Shown: piece after piece, positions 7,285 through 42,517 of the stretch | How positions within the stretch are numbered: position 1 is the first letter of the stretch | How the letters are laid out: every line of letters begins with the position of its first letter | Source of the DNA: Desulfovibrio porci | Lineage (GTDB): Bacteria > Desulfobacterota > Desulfovibrionia > Desulfovibrionales > Desulfovibrionaceae | Direction of reading: 5' to 3' | Length of the DNA stretch: 64,000 nt | Assembly: GCF_009696265.1 (NCBI RefSeq) | Contig: NZ_VUMH01000010.1 | Location: forward strand, 1-64,000 | Position numbers and translations under genes: made by a program | Notes under the pieces: generated by a model | Databases searched by the model: none | Told to the model about the DNA's origin: nothing | Seen by the model: only the letters and a program-made list of their open reading frames with translations

Positions 7285-7450
7285 AGATAGTGTCTACACG
7301 AATTCAAGTTAACACCGTTAACCATATCGCTATACAGCGGATTTGTACGGCAGCCTTAGCAGATGCGGCTCCAATAAGGCCCATGCTGCATCTGAGATTG
7401 CATGGCGGCGTTGAGGATTCATCATAAGCACATCCTTTAGACGCTATCTA
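7284..7450. mobile_element. 167-bp inverted-repeat remnant (MITE-like or internally deleted IS)
   Basis: TAGATAGTGTCTA at 7284-7296 and TAGACGCTATCTA at 7438-7450 are inverted copies with 12 of 13 bases matching. Between them, on the minus strand, lies a short frame that begins like an IS5-type transposase and stops after 31 residues. The segment therefore looks like an internally deleted insertion sequence or a MITE derived from one. Its right terminus coincides with the left terminus of the adjacent IS element (7451), so one element seems to have landed at the very end of the other. Confidence 0.6.
7330..7425 (-). pseudogene. N-terminal fragment of an IS5-type transposase
   Basis: On the minus strand a 31-codon frame starts at 7425 after AAAGGATG. 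Its peptide runs MMNPQRRHAISDAAWALLEP, which resembles the opening of IS5-family transposases (a basic tail, then an Asp-Ala-Trp-x-x-Leu-x-P motif). The frame ends at TAG 7330-7332, and nothing of the DDE catalytic core follows. It lies inside the inverted-repeat remnant at 7284-7450. Confidence 0.5.
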
Positions 7451-7517
7451 GGTTCAGGACTCATTAATTGTCAAAAAGTTTGTAAAAGAGTACTCATAGT
7501 GTGCCAAGAGGTGAGCT

Positions 7518-8275
7518 ATGAGTACTCTCTTTTATCTTTCCCGTGCCCAGCTTGATCGGATCAAGCCATATTTTCCTTTGTCCCATGGCATTCCGCGTGT
7601 TGACGATTTGCGGATACTCAGTGGAATCATTTACGTCATAAAACATGGACTTCAGTGGAAAGACGCACCTCGCGAGTACGGGCCACATAAAACCTTGTAT
7701 AACAGGTTCATACGCTGGAGCAGACTTGGCGTTTTCAACAAAATATTTATGGAGCTTGTTGAAAAACAAGGGGATACAGAGTGGCTAATGATTGATGCCA
7801 CCCACCTTAAAGCCCATCGTACGGCAGCAAGCTTGCTTAAAAAAGGGCTCTTTCCCGCTGTATCGGACGCACAAAAGGCGGACTGAACTCCAAACTTCAC
7901 GCTGTTTGCAATGGCGAGGGCAAGCCAATCCTCCTTTTGTTGTCTCCCGGCCAGACAAGTGACTACAAGGGAACTGCGCAATTGTTGAGCGCCTTCCCCA
8001 AGGCCAAGGAACTCCTTGCTGACCGAGGATATGATGCCGATTGGTTCCGCAATGCCTTGCTCGAAAGAGGCATCACGCCTTGCATCCCTTCCCGGAAAAC
8101 CCGAAAAGTAGCTATTGCCTACGACAAAGATCTGTATAAACAACGCCACAAAATTGAAAACATGTTTGGTAGAATCAAAGACTGACGACGTATTGCAATG
8201 CGCTATGATCGATGTGCCCACACATTTTTCTCGGCTATATGCATCGCAGCCGTTGTTATCTTCTATCTCAATTAA
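7518..8275 (+). pseudogene. IS5-family (IS427 group) transposase, two-frame, with nonsense codon
   Basis: The first frame (7518-7886) encodes the N-terminal DUF4096-like region MSTLFYLSRAQLDRIKPYFP and the first catalytic Asp in LMIDATHLKAHRTA. A -1 shift at the A-run 7839-7844 continues as RALSRCIGRTKGGLNSKLHA, then LADRGYDADWFRNAL (second Asp) and the KQRHKIENMFGRIKD region (Glu). Programmed -1 frameshifting is normal in this IS group. The frame is then broken by TGA at 8183-8185, where the family has TGG in the GRxKDWRRIAMRYDR motif. The remaining RRIAMRYDRCAHTFFSAI... runs in frame to TAA 8273-8275. The loss of about 30 C-terminal residues makes an inactive transposase likely. Confidence 0.85.
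7839..7847 (+). other. A6G3 slippery site for programmed -1 frameshift in the IS transposase
   Basis: CTT AAA AAA GGG in the zero frame allows a one-base backward slip, after which the ribosome reads AGG GCT CTT in the frame that carries the conserved GRTKGGLNSK motif. The downstream frame has a stop codon (TAA 7838-7840) just before the A-run, so the shift must happen here. This matches the known expression mode of IS427-type transposases. Confidence 0.75.
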
Positions 8276-8391
8276 TGAGTCCTGAGCCTAAGTAAAGAGG
8301 AAATTATGGGGTATCATTCTGAAGTGAGCCTGGCCCTGTGCCTGTTGACCATCCGGCGCACGCTTCGTATTCTTCCGCAAAGGAGGTCGCC

Positions 8392-37811: not shown

Positions 37812-38933
37812 ATGAAAGGACTGCATTTTTGGCTGGGCGCGCTGGCCCTGGCCCTGTTTCTGCCCACGGCGGCTCTGGCCGCCGACGTCAAGGTGGGGCT
37901 GATGTGCCCGCTCACGGGCAAATGGGCCTCGGAAGGCCAGGACATGAAGAACATCGTCACCCTGCTGGTAGATGAAGCCAACAGCAAGGGCGGCGTCAAC
38001 GGCCGGAAGATCGAACTGGTGGTGGAAGACGACGCCGGTGATCCCCGCACGGCCGCGCTGGCCGCGCAAAAGCTGGCCTCGGCGGGCGTGGTGGCTGTCA
38101 TCGGCACCTACGGCTCGGCTGTGACCGAAGCCAGCCAGAGCATTCTGGACGAAGCCGGTCTGGTGCAGATCGGCACGGGTTCCACCAGCGTGCGCCTGAC
38201 CGAAAAAGGCCTGCCGCTCTTTTTCCGCACCTGCCCGCGCGATGACGCCCAGGGCAAATCCGCAGCGGCCGCCATCGTCAAGGGCGGCTACAAGGCCGTG
38301 GCCCTGCTGCACGACAATTCCTCCTACGCCAAGGGCCTGGCCGAGGAAACCCGCACGGCCCTGGAAAAGGCCGGCGTGAAGGTTATCTTTTACGACGCCC
38401 TGACCCCCGGCGAGCGCGACTACACCGCCATTCTGACCAAACTCAAGGCCGCCGGTCCGGACCTGGTCTTCTTCACCGGCTACTATCCTGAAACCGGCAT
38501 GCTGCTGCGCCAGAAAAAGGAAATGGGCTGGAACGTGCCCATGATGGGCGGCGACGCGGCCAACCACCAGGATCTGGTCAAGATCGCGGGGTCCGAGGCC
38601 GCCGCCGGCTACTTCTTCATCAGCCCGCCCCTGCCGCAGGATATGGACACCCCGGAAGCCCGAAACTTCCTGGCTGCCTTCAAGGCCAAGTATAACAGCG
38701 TGCCCGTGTCGGTCTGGGCCGTGCTGGCCGGGGACGCCTTCAAGGCCATTGAGGCCGCGCTGGCCGCGGGCAAGAATGATCCCGAAGCCATGGCCGCCTG
38801 GCTCAAGCAGCTCAAGGGCCTGCCCGGCCTGTCCGGAACCCTGGGCTTTGACGCCAAGGGCGACCGCGTGGGCGAGTTTTACCGCACCTATGTGGTGGAT
38901 GATAAGGGCGTTTTCGTCCTTCAACCCAAGTAG
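37812..38933 (+). CDS. livJ: Branched-chain amino acid ABC transporter, periplasmic binding protein
   Basis: A 373-aa periplasmic binding protein of the Leu/Ile/Val type I fold. Signal peptide MKGLHFWLGALALALFLPTA with cleavage after ALA (residue 24 or so). Mature part starts DVKVGLMCPLTGKWASEGQD, typical of LivJ/LivK; further motifs are VVEDDAGDPRTAALAAQKL, VIGTYGSAVTEAS, FFRTCPRDDAQGKSAA and GERDYTAILTKLKAAGPDLV. Length equals the family. Its stop codon is already part of the big hairpin at 38931-39078, which precedes livH. It delivers branched-chain amino acids or related ligands to LivHM. Confidence 0.93.
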   Translation: MKGLHFWLGALALALFLPTAALAADVKVGLMCPLTGKWASEGQDMKNIVTLLVDEANSKGGVNGRKIELVVEDDAGDPRTAALAAQKLASAGVVAVIGTYGSAVTEASQSILDEAGLVQIGTGSTSVRLTEKGLPLFFRTCPRDDAQGKSAAAAIVKGGYKAVALLHDNSSYAKGLAEETRTALEKAGVKVIFYDALTPGERDYTAILTKLKAAGPDLVFFTGYYPETGMLLRQKKEMGWNVPMMGGDAANHQDLVKIAGSEAAAGYFFISPPLPQDMDTPEARNFLAAFKAKYNSVPVSVWAVLAGDAFKAIEAALAAGKNDPEAMAAWLKQLKGLPGLSGTLGFDAKGDRVGEFYRTYVVDDKGVFVLQPK

Positions 38934-39078
38934 CTTGCGGCTGAAAAGCGTCTTTTGCCCCCTGGGCCGCGTCAGAAACAGGGCGCGGCCCAGGGCTTAC
39001 GTGAAGAGTACTATCCCTGGTCCGCGCCCTGTTTCTTCCTTGCCAGGGAACAAAATCCATCTTTTTAGCCGCAAGCTA
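38931..39078. repeat. 148-bp imperfect inverted repeat (large hairpin) between livJ and livH
   Basis: Left arm 38931-38995 and right arm 39015-39078 are inverted copies. The outer parts, TAGCTTGCGGCT and AGCCGCAAGCTA, pair perfectly, the inner parts CAGAAACAGGGCGCGG and CCGCGCCCTGTTTCTT nearly so, and the middle with mismatches and small bulges. I estimate that about three quarters of the 64 positions pair. The loop (38996-39014) is 19 nt. The livJ stop codon TAG is the first triplet of the left arm, and the hairpin ends 58 bp before livH. It can stabilise livJ mRNA and reduce read-through into the permease genes, or be a MITE-like insert. Confidence 0.85.
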
Positions 39079-39136: not shown

Positions 39137-40042
39137 ATGGAACAATTTTTTCAACAGCTTCTGAACGGCCTTGCCGTGGGCGGCATCTACGCGCTGGTGG
39201 CCCTGGGCTACACCATGGTCTACGGCGTGCTCAAGCTCATCAACTTCGCCCACGGCGACCTGTTCACCATCGGCGCCTATCTGGGCCTGACCCTGCTGGT
39301 GAGCTGCAATCTCTCCGGCATGCTGCCGCTGCCCGTGGCCGTGCTGGCCGTCTTCGTCATGGTGGCCCTGCTGGTGGCCCTGATCGGCTTTCTGCTGGAG
39401 CGCGCGGCCTACCGGCCCCTGCGCGACGCGGGCCGTCTTTCGGCCGTGGTCTCGGCCCTGGGCGCGTCCATCTTTTTCCAGAACGCCATCATGCTGATCT
39501 ACGGCGCGCGCGTCTACGTCTACCCCGATTTCCTGCGCCCGGATTTCACAGTGCATTTGTTCGGCATGGCCGTGCCCGGCGTGCGCCTGCTGGTCATCGC
39601 GGCCAGCGTGCTGCTGATGCTCGGCCTTTCGGCCTTCATCCAGCGCACCCGCACGGGCGCGGCCATCCGCGCCGTGGCCATTGATCCGGGCGCGGCCCGG
39701 CTCATGGGCATCAACGTGGACCGGGTCATTTCCCTGGTCTTTCTGATCGGACCGGGCCTGGGCGGCGCGGCAGGGCTGATGGTGGGCATCTACTACGGCC
39801 AGATCGACTTTACCATGGGCTGGTCCTATGGCCTCAAAGCCTTTACCGCCGCCATTCTGGGCGGCATCGGCAACATTCCGGGCGCCATGCTCGGCGGCCT
39901 GCTGCTGGGCGTCATCGAGGCCCTGGCCGCCGGGTACATCGCCATCGCCTGGAAGGACGCCATCGCCTTTCTGGTGCTGATTCTGATCCTGATCATCCGG
40001 CCCACCGGCATTCTGGGCGAACGCACGGCGGACAAGCTATGA
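39137..40042 (+). CDS. livH: Branched-chain amino acid ABC transporter permease LivH
   Basis: A 301-aa integral membrane permease with eight or so predicted helices. Family motifs: LLNGLAVGGIYALVALGYTM at residue 8, VYGVLKLINFAHGDLFTIGA (the LivH hallmark), TRTGAAIRAVAIDPGAARLM and DRVISLVFLIGPGLGGAAGL, followed by FTAAILGGIGNIPGAMLGGL. Its stop TGA overlaps the livM start (ATGA, 40039-40042), indicating translational coupling. Confidence 0.94.
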   Translation: MEQFFQQLLNGLAVGGIYALVALGYTMVYGVLKLINFAHGDLFTIGAYLGLTLLVSCNLSGMLPLPVAVLAVFVMVALLVALIGFLLERAAYRPLRDAGRLSAVVSALGASIFFQNAIMLIYGARVYVYPDFLRPDFTVHLFGMAVPGVRLLVIAASVLLMLGLSAFIQRTRTGAAIRAVAIDPGAARLMGINVDRVISLVFLIGPGLGGAAGLMVGIYYGQIDFTMGWSYGLKAFTAAILGGIGNIPGAMLGGLLLGVIEALAAGYIAIAWKDAIAFLVLILILIIRPTGILGERTADKL

Positions 40043-41037
40043 AGCGCATGCCTTTGTATATCGCGCTGGGCGCGCTGCTCTGCGGGCTGCCCCTGGTCTG
40101 CAATTCCTACTGGCTGGACGTCTGCGTGATGATCGGTCTCTACGCCCTGCTGGCCCTCTCGCTGAACGTGATTCTGGGCCAGGCGGGCATCTTCCATATG
40201 GGGCACGCGGCCTTTTTCGCCGTGGGCGCGTATGTGACGGCCATTCTGAACACCCTGTACCAGTGGCCCATCTTCTGGACCATGCCCCTGGCGGGAGCGG
40301 CGGCGGCCTTTTTCGCCCTGCTGGTGGCCCGGCCCATCATCCATCTGCGCGGCGACTATCTGCTTATCGTGACCATCGGCATTGTGGAGATCGTGCGCAT
40401 TGCCCTGATCAACGATATTTTCGGCCTGACCGGCGGCTCCAACGGCATTTTCGGCATCAGCCGTCCGCGTTTTTTCGGCTTCAAGATCGTCAAGAGCGTG
40501 CACTTTTATTATCTGGTCTGGGGCATGGTGGGCGCGAGCCTGCTGCTTTTTTACGGCCTCTGGCGCTCGCGTTTCGGGCGCGCGTTGAACTACATCAAAG
40601 AGGACGACATCGCGGCCGAGGGCTGCGGGGTCAACGTCACCCGCTACAAGCTGCTGGCCTTTGTGCTGGGGGCTTTCTGGGCGGGCATGGCGGGCACGGT
40701 CTATGCCGCCAAGATGAGCACCATCGCGCCGGAATCCTTTAATTTCATGGAATCCGTGATCATTTTCGCGGTGGTCATCCTTTCCGGCGGCAGTCAGCTG
40801 GGCGTCCTGGTCAGCGCCTTTCTGTTCATCGGCCTGCCGGAAGTGCTGCGCGAATTTTCCGCCGCGCGCATGCTGATTTTCGGTCTGGCCATGATGATCA
40901 TGATGATCTGGCGGCCGCAGGGCCTGCTGCCGCCCGGCCCGCGCCATTACGCCGCGCCTCCCGGCGACGTCCCGCCGGAGGGCCCGGCGGTTCCGCGCGC
41001 CGGGGACGCGCCCGCTGAAGCCGGGAGGCCCGCATGA
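40039..41037 (+). CDS. livM: Branched-chain amino acid ABC transporter permease LivM
   Basis: A 332-aa membrane permease. LivM features include LYALLALSLNVILGQAGIFH followed by MGHAAFFAVGAYVTAIL, RGDYLLIVTIGIVEIVRIAL, LTGGSNGIFGI, RFGRALNYIKEDDIAAEGCG and GMAGTVYAAKMSTIAPESFN, with about nine helices. The last 35 residues are Pro/Ala/Glu-rich and cytoplasmic. Overlaps livH and livG by 4 bp each. Confidence 0.94.
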   Translation: MKRMPLYIALGALLCGLPLVCNSYWLDVCVMIGLYALLALSLNVILGQAGIFHMGHAAFFAVGAYVTAILNTLYQWPIFWTMPLAGAAAAFFALLVARPIIHLRGDYLLIVTIGIVEIVRIALINDIFGLTGGSNGIFGISRPRFFGFKIVKSVHFYYLVWGMVGASLLLFYGLWRSRFGRALNYIKEDDIAAEGCGVNVTRYKLLAFVLGAFWAGMAGTVYAAKMSTIAPESFNFMESVIIFAVVILSGGSQLGVLVSAFLFIGLPEVLREFSAARMLIFGLAMMIMMIWRPQGLLPPGPRHYAAPPGDVPPEGPAVPRAGDAPAEAGRPA

Positions 41038-41804
41038 GTCTCTTGTCTCTTCAGGAAGTGACCAAGGTTTTCGGCGGGCTCATCGCCGTCAACGATCTTT
41101 CCTTTTCGGTGGAGGCGGGCAGCATCGTGGGCCTGATCGGGCCCAACGGCGCGGGCAAGACCACGGTGTTCAACTGCATTACCGGCAATTACACGCCGGA
41201 GCGGGGCCGGATCTTTTTTGACGGCGAGCCCGTCACCGGCCTGAAGCCCCACCATGTGGTGGAACTGGGCATCGCGCGCACCTTTCAGAGCATCCGCCTG
41301 TTCGGCAAACTGCCCGTGCTGGAAAACGTGCTGGCCGGACGGCATTGCCGGATGAAGGCCGGTCTGTTCGCCTGTATGCTGCACACTCCGGGCCAGCGCC
41401 GCGAGGAAAAGGCCGCCGTGGCCCGCTGCATGGAGGAACTGCGTTTCGTGGGCCTGGCCGACCGTTGCGGCGAGGCCGCCGGAGGCCTGTCCTACGGCAA
41501 CCAGCGGCTGCTGGAAATCGCGCGCGCCCTGGCCTCGGACCCGCGCCTGCTGATCCTGGACGAACCCGCCGGGGGCATGAACGACCAGGAAACCGCGGTT
41601 CTGGTGGAGATCATCCGCGCCATCCGCGAGCGGGGCGTCACCGTGCTGCTTATTGAGCACGACATGCGCCTGGTCATGCAGATCTGCGAAAAACTGGTGG
41701 TGCTGGAGCACGGCACCTTGATCGCCGAGGGCGCGCCCGAGGCCATGCGCCGTCATCCGGCGGTGATCGAAGCCTATCTGGGCGCCGACGACGAGAAGTG
41801 GTGA
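41034..41804 (+). CDS. livG: Branched-chain amino acid ABC transporter ATPase LivG
   Basis: A 256-aa ATPase. Walker A GLIGPNGAGKTTVFNCITGN, LivG-specific TPERGRIFFDGEPVTGLKPH and RTFQSIRLFGKLPVLENVL, signature LSYGNQRLLEIARALA, Walker B LLILDEPAGGMNDQET and H-loop VLLIEHDMRLVMQICEKLVV. These fit LivG rather than LivF. Start ATG 41034 overlaps the livM stop. Confidence 0.94.
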   Translation: MSLLSLQEVTKVFGGLIAVNDLSFSVEAGSIVGLIGPNGAGKTTVFNCITGNYTPERGRIFFDGEPVTGLKPHHVVELGIARTFQSIRLFGKLPVLENVLAGRHCRMKAGLFACMLHTPGQRREEKAAVARCMEELRFVGLADRCGEAAGGLSYGNQRLLEIARALASDPRLLILDEPAGGMNDQETAVLVEIIRAIRERGVTVLLIEHDMRLVMQICEKLVVLEHGTLIAEGAPEAMRRHPAVIEAYLGADDEKW

Positions 41805-41806
41805 GT

Positions 41807-42517
<711 letters not shown>

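Follow-up and report, generated by a model that had tools for sequence, protein, structure and literature searches.

What is a 148-nt hairpin that begins within the stop codon of livJ and ends ahead of livH, how did it get there, and does it matter for the genes on either side? These questions are raised by a locus of Desulfovibrio porci, for which a window of 64,000 nucleotides (contig NZ_VUMH01000010.1, positions 1 to 64,000) was analysed, and whose initial annotation had proposed either an inserted MITE-like element fixed for regulation or an RNA regulator. Our best reading, to which we assign a probability of roughly 0.7, is that of a domesticated, phylum-wide, non-coding MITE-like palindrome, inserted at a TA at the livJ 3′ end and with a proposed role at this end.

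The gene order livJ, livH, livM, livG, livF holds, and the hairpin does lie between the binding protein and permease genes; the LivJ and LivH scores fall short of the NCBIfam curated cut-offs. By the named relatives of its livH, the window belongs to Desulfovibrio. The features discussed in the text are listed here by their positions in the window.

37812–38933, + strand: livJ-type branched-chain amino acid binding protein gene, stop TAG
38931–38932, no strand: left TA, presumed target-site copy, within the livJ stop (TA duplication is demonstrated in recent copies of the sister species G079)
38933–39076, + strand: palindromic MITE-like element, 144 bp, sense relative to livJ, from folding, repeat family and TA ends
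38933–38948, + strand: outer arm, left, copy-specific sequence
38942–39066, + strand: conserved core, the part to which covariance models R1 and R2 match
38974–39036, + strand: inner hairpin, its stem variable with compensatory changes, its terminal part conserved
39061–39076, + strand: outer arm, right
39077–39078, no strand: right TA, presumed target-site copy
39137–40042, + strand: livH permease gene, downstream neighbour of the hairpin
40039–42517, + strand: livM, livG and livF, remainder of the operon-like cluster

Folding and Position of the Hairpin

Positions 38931–39078 (148 nt) form a single long imperfect hairpin, bounded by the TA within the livJ stop TAG and by a second TA and enclosing the 144-bp element, exactly at the coordinates first given for it. 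Its RNA minimum free energy is −87.4 kcal/mol, compared with −48.5 ± 4.0 kcal/mol for 200 dinucleotide shuffles (z = −9.8), none of which folded as well. Aligned by BLAST with its own reverse complement, the hairpin matches at 74% over 150 bp, in agreement with the roughly three-quarters pairing of the arms noticed at the outset. The livJ stop TAG is composed of the target TA and the first G of the palindromic element, so that the start of the hairpin at the stop codon follows from the targeting of TA.

A Family Dispersed through the Phylum

The hairpin proved to be multicopy when further copies were sought. BLAST with the livJ hairpin finds about ten others in the D. porci genome (G000), and R1, a covariance model built from nine copies, gives 61 matches there, corresponding to about 50 distinct places. 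With R2, built from 47 copies, the family is detected in 32 of the 79 congeneric genomes, a patchy distribution with many congeners having none, in 50 of the 199 from the class, and in 29 of the 198 from the phylum, representing 22 of 144 genera; twenty distant copies at the phylum level, read directly, carry the same motifs. The family is thus a dispersed, short, non-coding, multicopy element, as bacterial MITEs are. A regular expression written strictly for the loop motifs covered 34 of 83 loci and missed the livJ copy; being too narrow, it was not used.

No description of such a family was found in Rfam, where the search gave no real match, or in the literature searched for Desulfovibrio. 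Homology with ERIC was rejected, since 5,426 E. coli genomes contained nothing that matched in sequence, and a plasmid or phage origin was set aside since the Desulfovibrio copies had no match among plasmids and phages. The end boxes of integron attC sites, RYYYAAC and GTTRRRY, were not seen by eye. Four places on plasmid CP026659.1 (Deltaproteobacteria bacterium Smac51) resemble a distant phylum-level copy, and the IMG/VR viral contigs L384 and L385 hold one strong copy each (115 and 100 bits), possibly in prophage flanks. Tandem arrays of the element occur at L334 (G026:C1:13500-16300), L335 and L336, one example having five or more units, outer arm and linker included, spaced 152 bp apart.

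Anatomy of the Element

The element is built in layers. The outermost is the outer stem, whose sequence varies from copy to copy; next inward, in the class of the livJ copy, a conserved TTTTGCC pairs towards ACAAAA, and then CCCTGG with CCAGGG. An internal loop conserved on both sides follows (GCGTCA opposite TTTCCTTG), inside which lies the variable inner stem, and the innermost, terminal part is again conserved (GGTC-GAGTACC-AAGAGTACACTCCC or a close variant). The pairing profile of 89 copies places stems at core positions 0–8, 11–15, 18–24, 31–46 and 55–59, with fixed interruptions near 9–10, 16–17, 25–30 and 47–54.

Both stems change sequence among copies yet stay complementary. Covarying pairs, as looked for in structured RNAs, are present: 19 of the 36 pairs show both-sided changes among the nine closest copies, with 40 cells changed on both sides versus 12 in shuffles, and in both stems the pairing of a copy's own arms amounts to about −20 kcal/mol versus −10 kcal/mol for swapped arms. 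Matches to the covariance models are strand-specific. That the copy-specific outer arms came from insertion into pre-existing terminator stems was considered, and no direct support for it was obtained.

Orthologous Copies and liv Loci of Relatives

Twelve pairs of copies occupy the same place in the sister species and in D. porci. In the livJ pair the loops are 95–100% identical and the inner stem has changed on both sides, GAAACAGGGCGCGG versus AAAAACCGGACGCGG, each with its matching partner; in the pair L186/L015 the stems are almost wholly different and still paired. Pairing is thus kept in orthologous copies. At the site L182/L232 the two species have different element types. In the orthologous pair L227/L184 the inner stems are nearly identical, but the terminal loop regions are wholly unlike each other (19% identity).

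In the livJ-livH gap, many relatives have ordinary GC stem-loops, and in others the gap is very short. R2 reports weak family members in this gap at L102 (G025) and, on the opposite strand, at L108 (G002); the hairpin of G025 is single copy by BLAST, yet a weak family match by R2.

Mobility and a Probable IS5-Type Partner

The mobility of the family is best seen in the sister species, whose livH is 97% identical and which has about 22 identical copies in the form of plain TA-flanked MITEs, bounded by GGGCCTGTTAACGCTAT and its near-inverse, with the flanking TA usually within CTAG. TA stands on both sides in 20 of 21 of these recent copies, as expected of a target-site duplication, and the livJ copy has TA at both ends; many old copies are without the right-hand TA, either lost or absent. 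A filled and empty pair was found at the stop of fliD (this name, like that of FliS, being our assignment by eye from the sequence), where the MITE lies exactly in the stop in the sister species and the same junction is empty in D. porci, with a TAA stop.

The sister species also carries an 823-bp IS5-family (IS427-like) element with its transposase in two frames (G079:C1:2825671-2826493), and the terminal repeat of this element, GGACCTGTTAACACTA, and its TA flanks match those of the MITEs; by eye, no relation is seen between its interior and the core of the palindrome. Larger MITE versions (L276, L277, L278 and L279 of G079) have an extra palindromic segment with CTGTCCTCATCCGTAAGCAGCTTCG nested in the terminal loop region.

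Elsewhere the ends differ. Subfamilies of D. porci have other TA-linked ends, of the GGAGCTGTTTCTAAATT and GGGGCTGTYC types, and other families of the phylum have the end types GTGCCCATCC, GGCTACCTTG and GTTTCCGTCC. Bacterial MITEs usually retain their ends and lose their interior, whereas here, unusually, the interior is conserved phylum-wide and the ends change. IS5-type elements are present in the D. porci genome with other terminal repeats, and were discarded as partners; no IS end found there matches the terminal arms of the livJ copy, so that the case for its own transposition comes from the family. At livJ, no unoccupied site with an exact junction was found. At about 7449–8290 the window contains a TA-flanked IS5-type element of about 838 bp with terminal repeats matching at 15 of 16 positions (GGTTCAGGACTCATTA), and its transposase frame contains an internal TGA.

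Taken together, the roughly 50 copies, the TA on both sides, the burst in the sister species, the IS5-family element with matching ends and the filled and empty site bear out the proposal of an inserted MITE-like element. We are highly confident that the hairpin belongs to such a family, its class as a MITE-like palindrome being near-certain; that it was moved by an IS5-type transposase is quite probable, and an origin by transposition of this type is likely.

Stop Codons and Orientation

In D. porci, 34 of 50 copies begin at most 14 nt after the stop of a same-sense gene and only three abut an antisense stop (p = 1e-7 for the sense bias), with none called inside a gene; gene ends came from a simple codon-score script, and a few calls are possibly wrong. 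The pattern recurs in a different genus (G143), where nine of 14 copies lie against a stop in sense, with no contact in antisense. One copy of this genome, L330 (G143:C1:2379799-2379922), is apparently embedded in an open frame of 1025 codons; no other was seen to lie within a predicted gene.

The 21 recent copies of the sister species are distributed otherwise: six lie in TAG stops in sense, two in antisense, and 13 elsewhere. TA targeting itself therefore yields contact with stop codons, and the start at the stop, initially read as a sign of a MITE or of regulation, is accounted for by insertion at a TA target, with no regulation needed to explain it. Contact is more frequent among old copies (37 of 50 in D. 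porci versus eight of 21 recent ones, p = 0.007), and retention seems to enrich it beyond what targeting gives; the difference in sense bias between the two sets is not significant (p = 0.21).

Pairing at the RNA or the DNA Level

If selection acted on sense RNA stems, G-U mismatches would be tolerated more than A-C mismatches. Counted as isolated mismatches in a symmetric alignment, of modest sample size, the inner stem has 22 G-U and 20 A-C, the outer stem 22 and 40; over all arms the counts are 72 and 89, again from a modest sample. No excess of G-U over A-C was thus found in the stems. The mismatch pattern gives no support to selection on sense-RNA stems and agrees with DNA-level correction or selection, or with arms of recent origin. 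The conserved loops and the orientation bias lie outside what this result explains and still need an explanation. The suggestion of an element fixed for regulation, or of an RNA regulator, is supported only indirectly: pairing is kept in orthologues and old copies stand near-always in one orientation after stops, but the G-U bias is lacking.

Competing Explanations

In our preferred reading, the domesticated palindrome, the livJ copy would have entered at its TA via a transposase acting in trans, and old copies may have been kept preferentially at sense stops because they are harmless or helpful there. In the liv message the hairpin would form the 3′ end of the livJ portion, where it could block 3′ exonucleases or act as a processing or attenuation point, and the result would be binding protein in excess of permease. 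The ordinary stem-loops in the same gap of many relatives may play this role too. An effect on livJ/livH expression, suggested by analogy with ERIC (PMC2229807), has odds in our estimate slightly short of even.

A possible, if somewhat doubtful, alternative is a selfish and effectively neutral MITE that targets TA into stops, is cleared from other places by purifying selection, and has no effect on expression, the complementarity of its stems being maintained at the DNA level by template-switch (quasipalindrome) correction. The automatic stop contact of eight of 21 recent copies under TA/CTAG targeting, the lack of a G-U bias over A-C and the patchy presence of the family, absent from many congeners, all suit this explanation, which has difficulty with the strong sense bias of old copies (34:3), repeated in another genus, and with loops conserved between orthologous copies and across the phylum. 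These loops, together with the covarying stems, the strand-specific model matches and the sense orientation at 3′ ends, would be natural for a cis-acting structured RNA family under selection, a 3′-UTR regulator whose mobile-looking copies are secondary; we regard it as quite unlikely, for it sits poorly with the missing G-U bias, the identical recent copies outside 3′ ends, the change of element type at one site between sister species (L182/L232) and the lack of an Rfam family.

That the hairpin arose locally, as an ordinary but oversized intrinsic terminator or attenuator for the liv operon, is hardly credible: the hairpin is placed where one might sit, between livJ and livH, and relatives have ordinary stem-loops there, but the dozens of homologous copies elsewhere refute a local origin, and the absence of a U-run after the GC stem speaks against an intrinsic terminator. 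Somewhat unlikely, finally, is an inversion of the usual MITE logic, in which a conserved, strand-specific structured core of about 120 nt would have spread through the phylum by taking different transposase ends and been kept in sense at gene 3′ ends because a conserved cellular factor, which sets the fate of the upstream message, recognises its conserved internal loops; RNases, RNA-binding proteins and DNA-hairpin-binding proteins would be candidates. With its conserved interior, its changing ends and its one-orientation contact with stops, the family supplies many natural replicates for asking if a palindrome of selfish origin can turn into a general 3′-end element of bacterial messages.

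Comparison with Known Systems

A close counterpart is ERIC/IRU of enterobacteria, a 127-bp imperfect palindrome that is intergenic and transcribed, has TA ends and duplicates TA, and for which an orientation-dependent effect on the upstream message is reported in Yersinia (PMC2229807, PMC2759123). The two families have in common an imperfect palindrome of 120–150 bp with TA ends and TA duplication; unlike ERIC, the family described here has terminal repeats that vary by lineage, conserved interior loops and contact with stop codons. The RUP element of pneumococcus, small and non-autonomous, has terminal repeats common to an IS and targets TA (PMC2229807), and our family resembles it in the IS-matching terminal repeats of the sister species and in TA targeting; the partner of RUP is IS630-Spn1, whereas here it is an IS5-family element and the interior is conserved across the phylum. 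YPAL of Yersinia, a long mobile palindrome of about 167 bp beside genes with a possible effect on upstream transcripts (PMC2229807), is without TA ends and makes duplications of 3–26 bp, in contrast to the TA-ended family. The Correia/NEMIS MITEs of Neisseria, whose RNA hairpin near genes is proposed to be a target of RNase III (PMC2229807, PMC2649163), are unrelated in host and terminal repeats, and the likeness lies in a MITE hairpin near genes.
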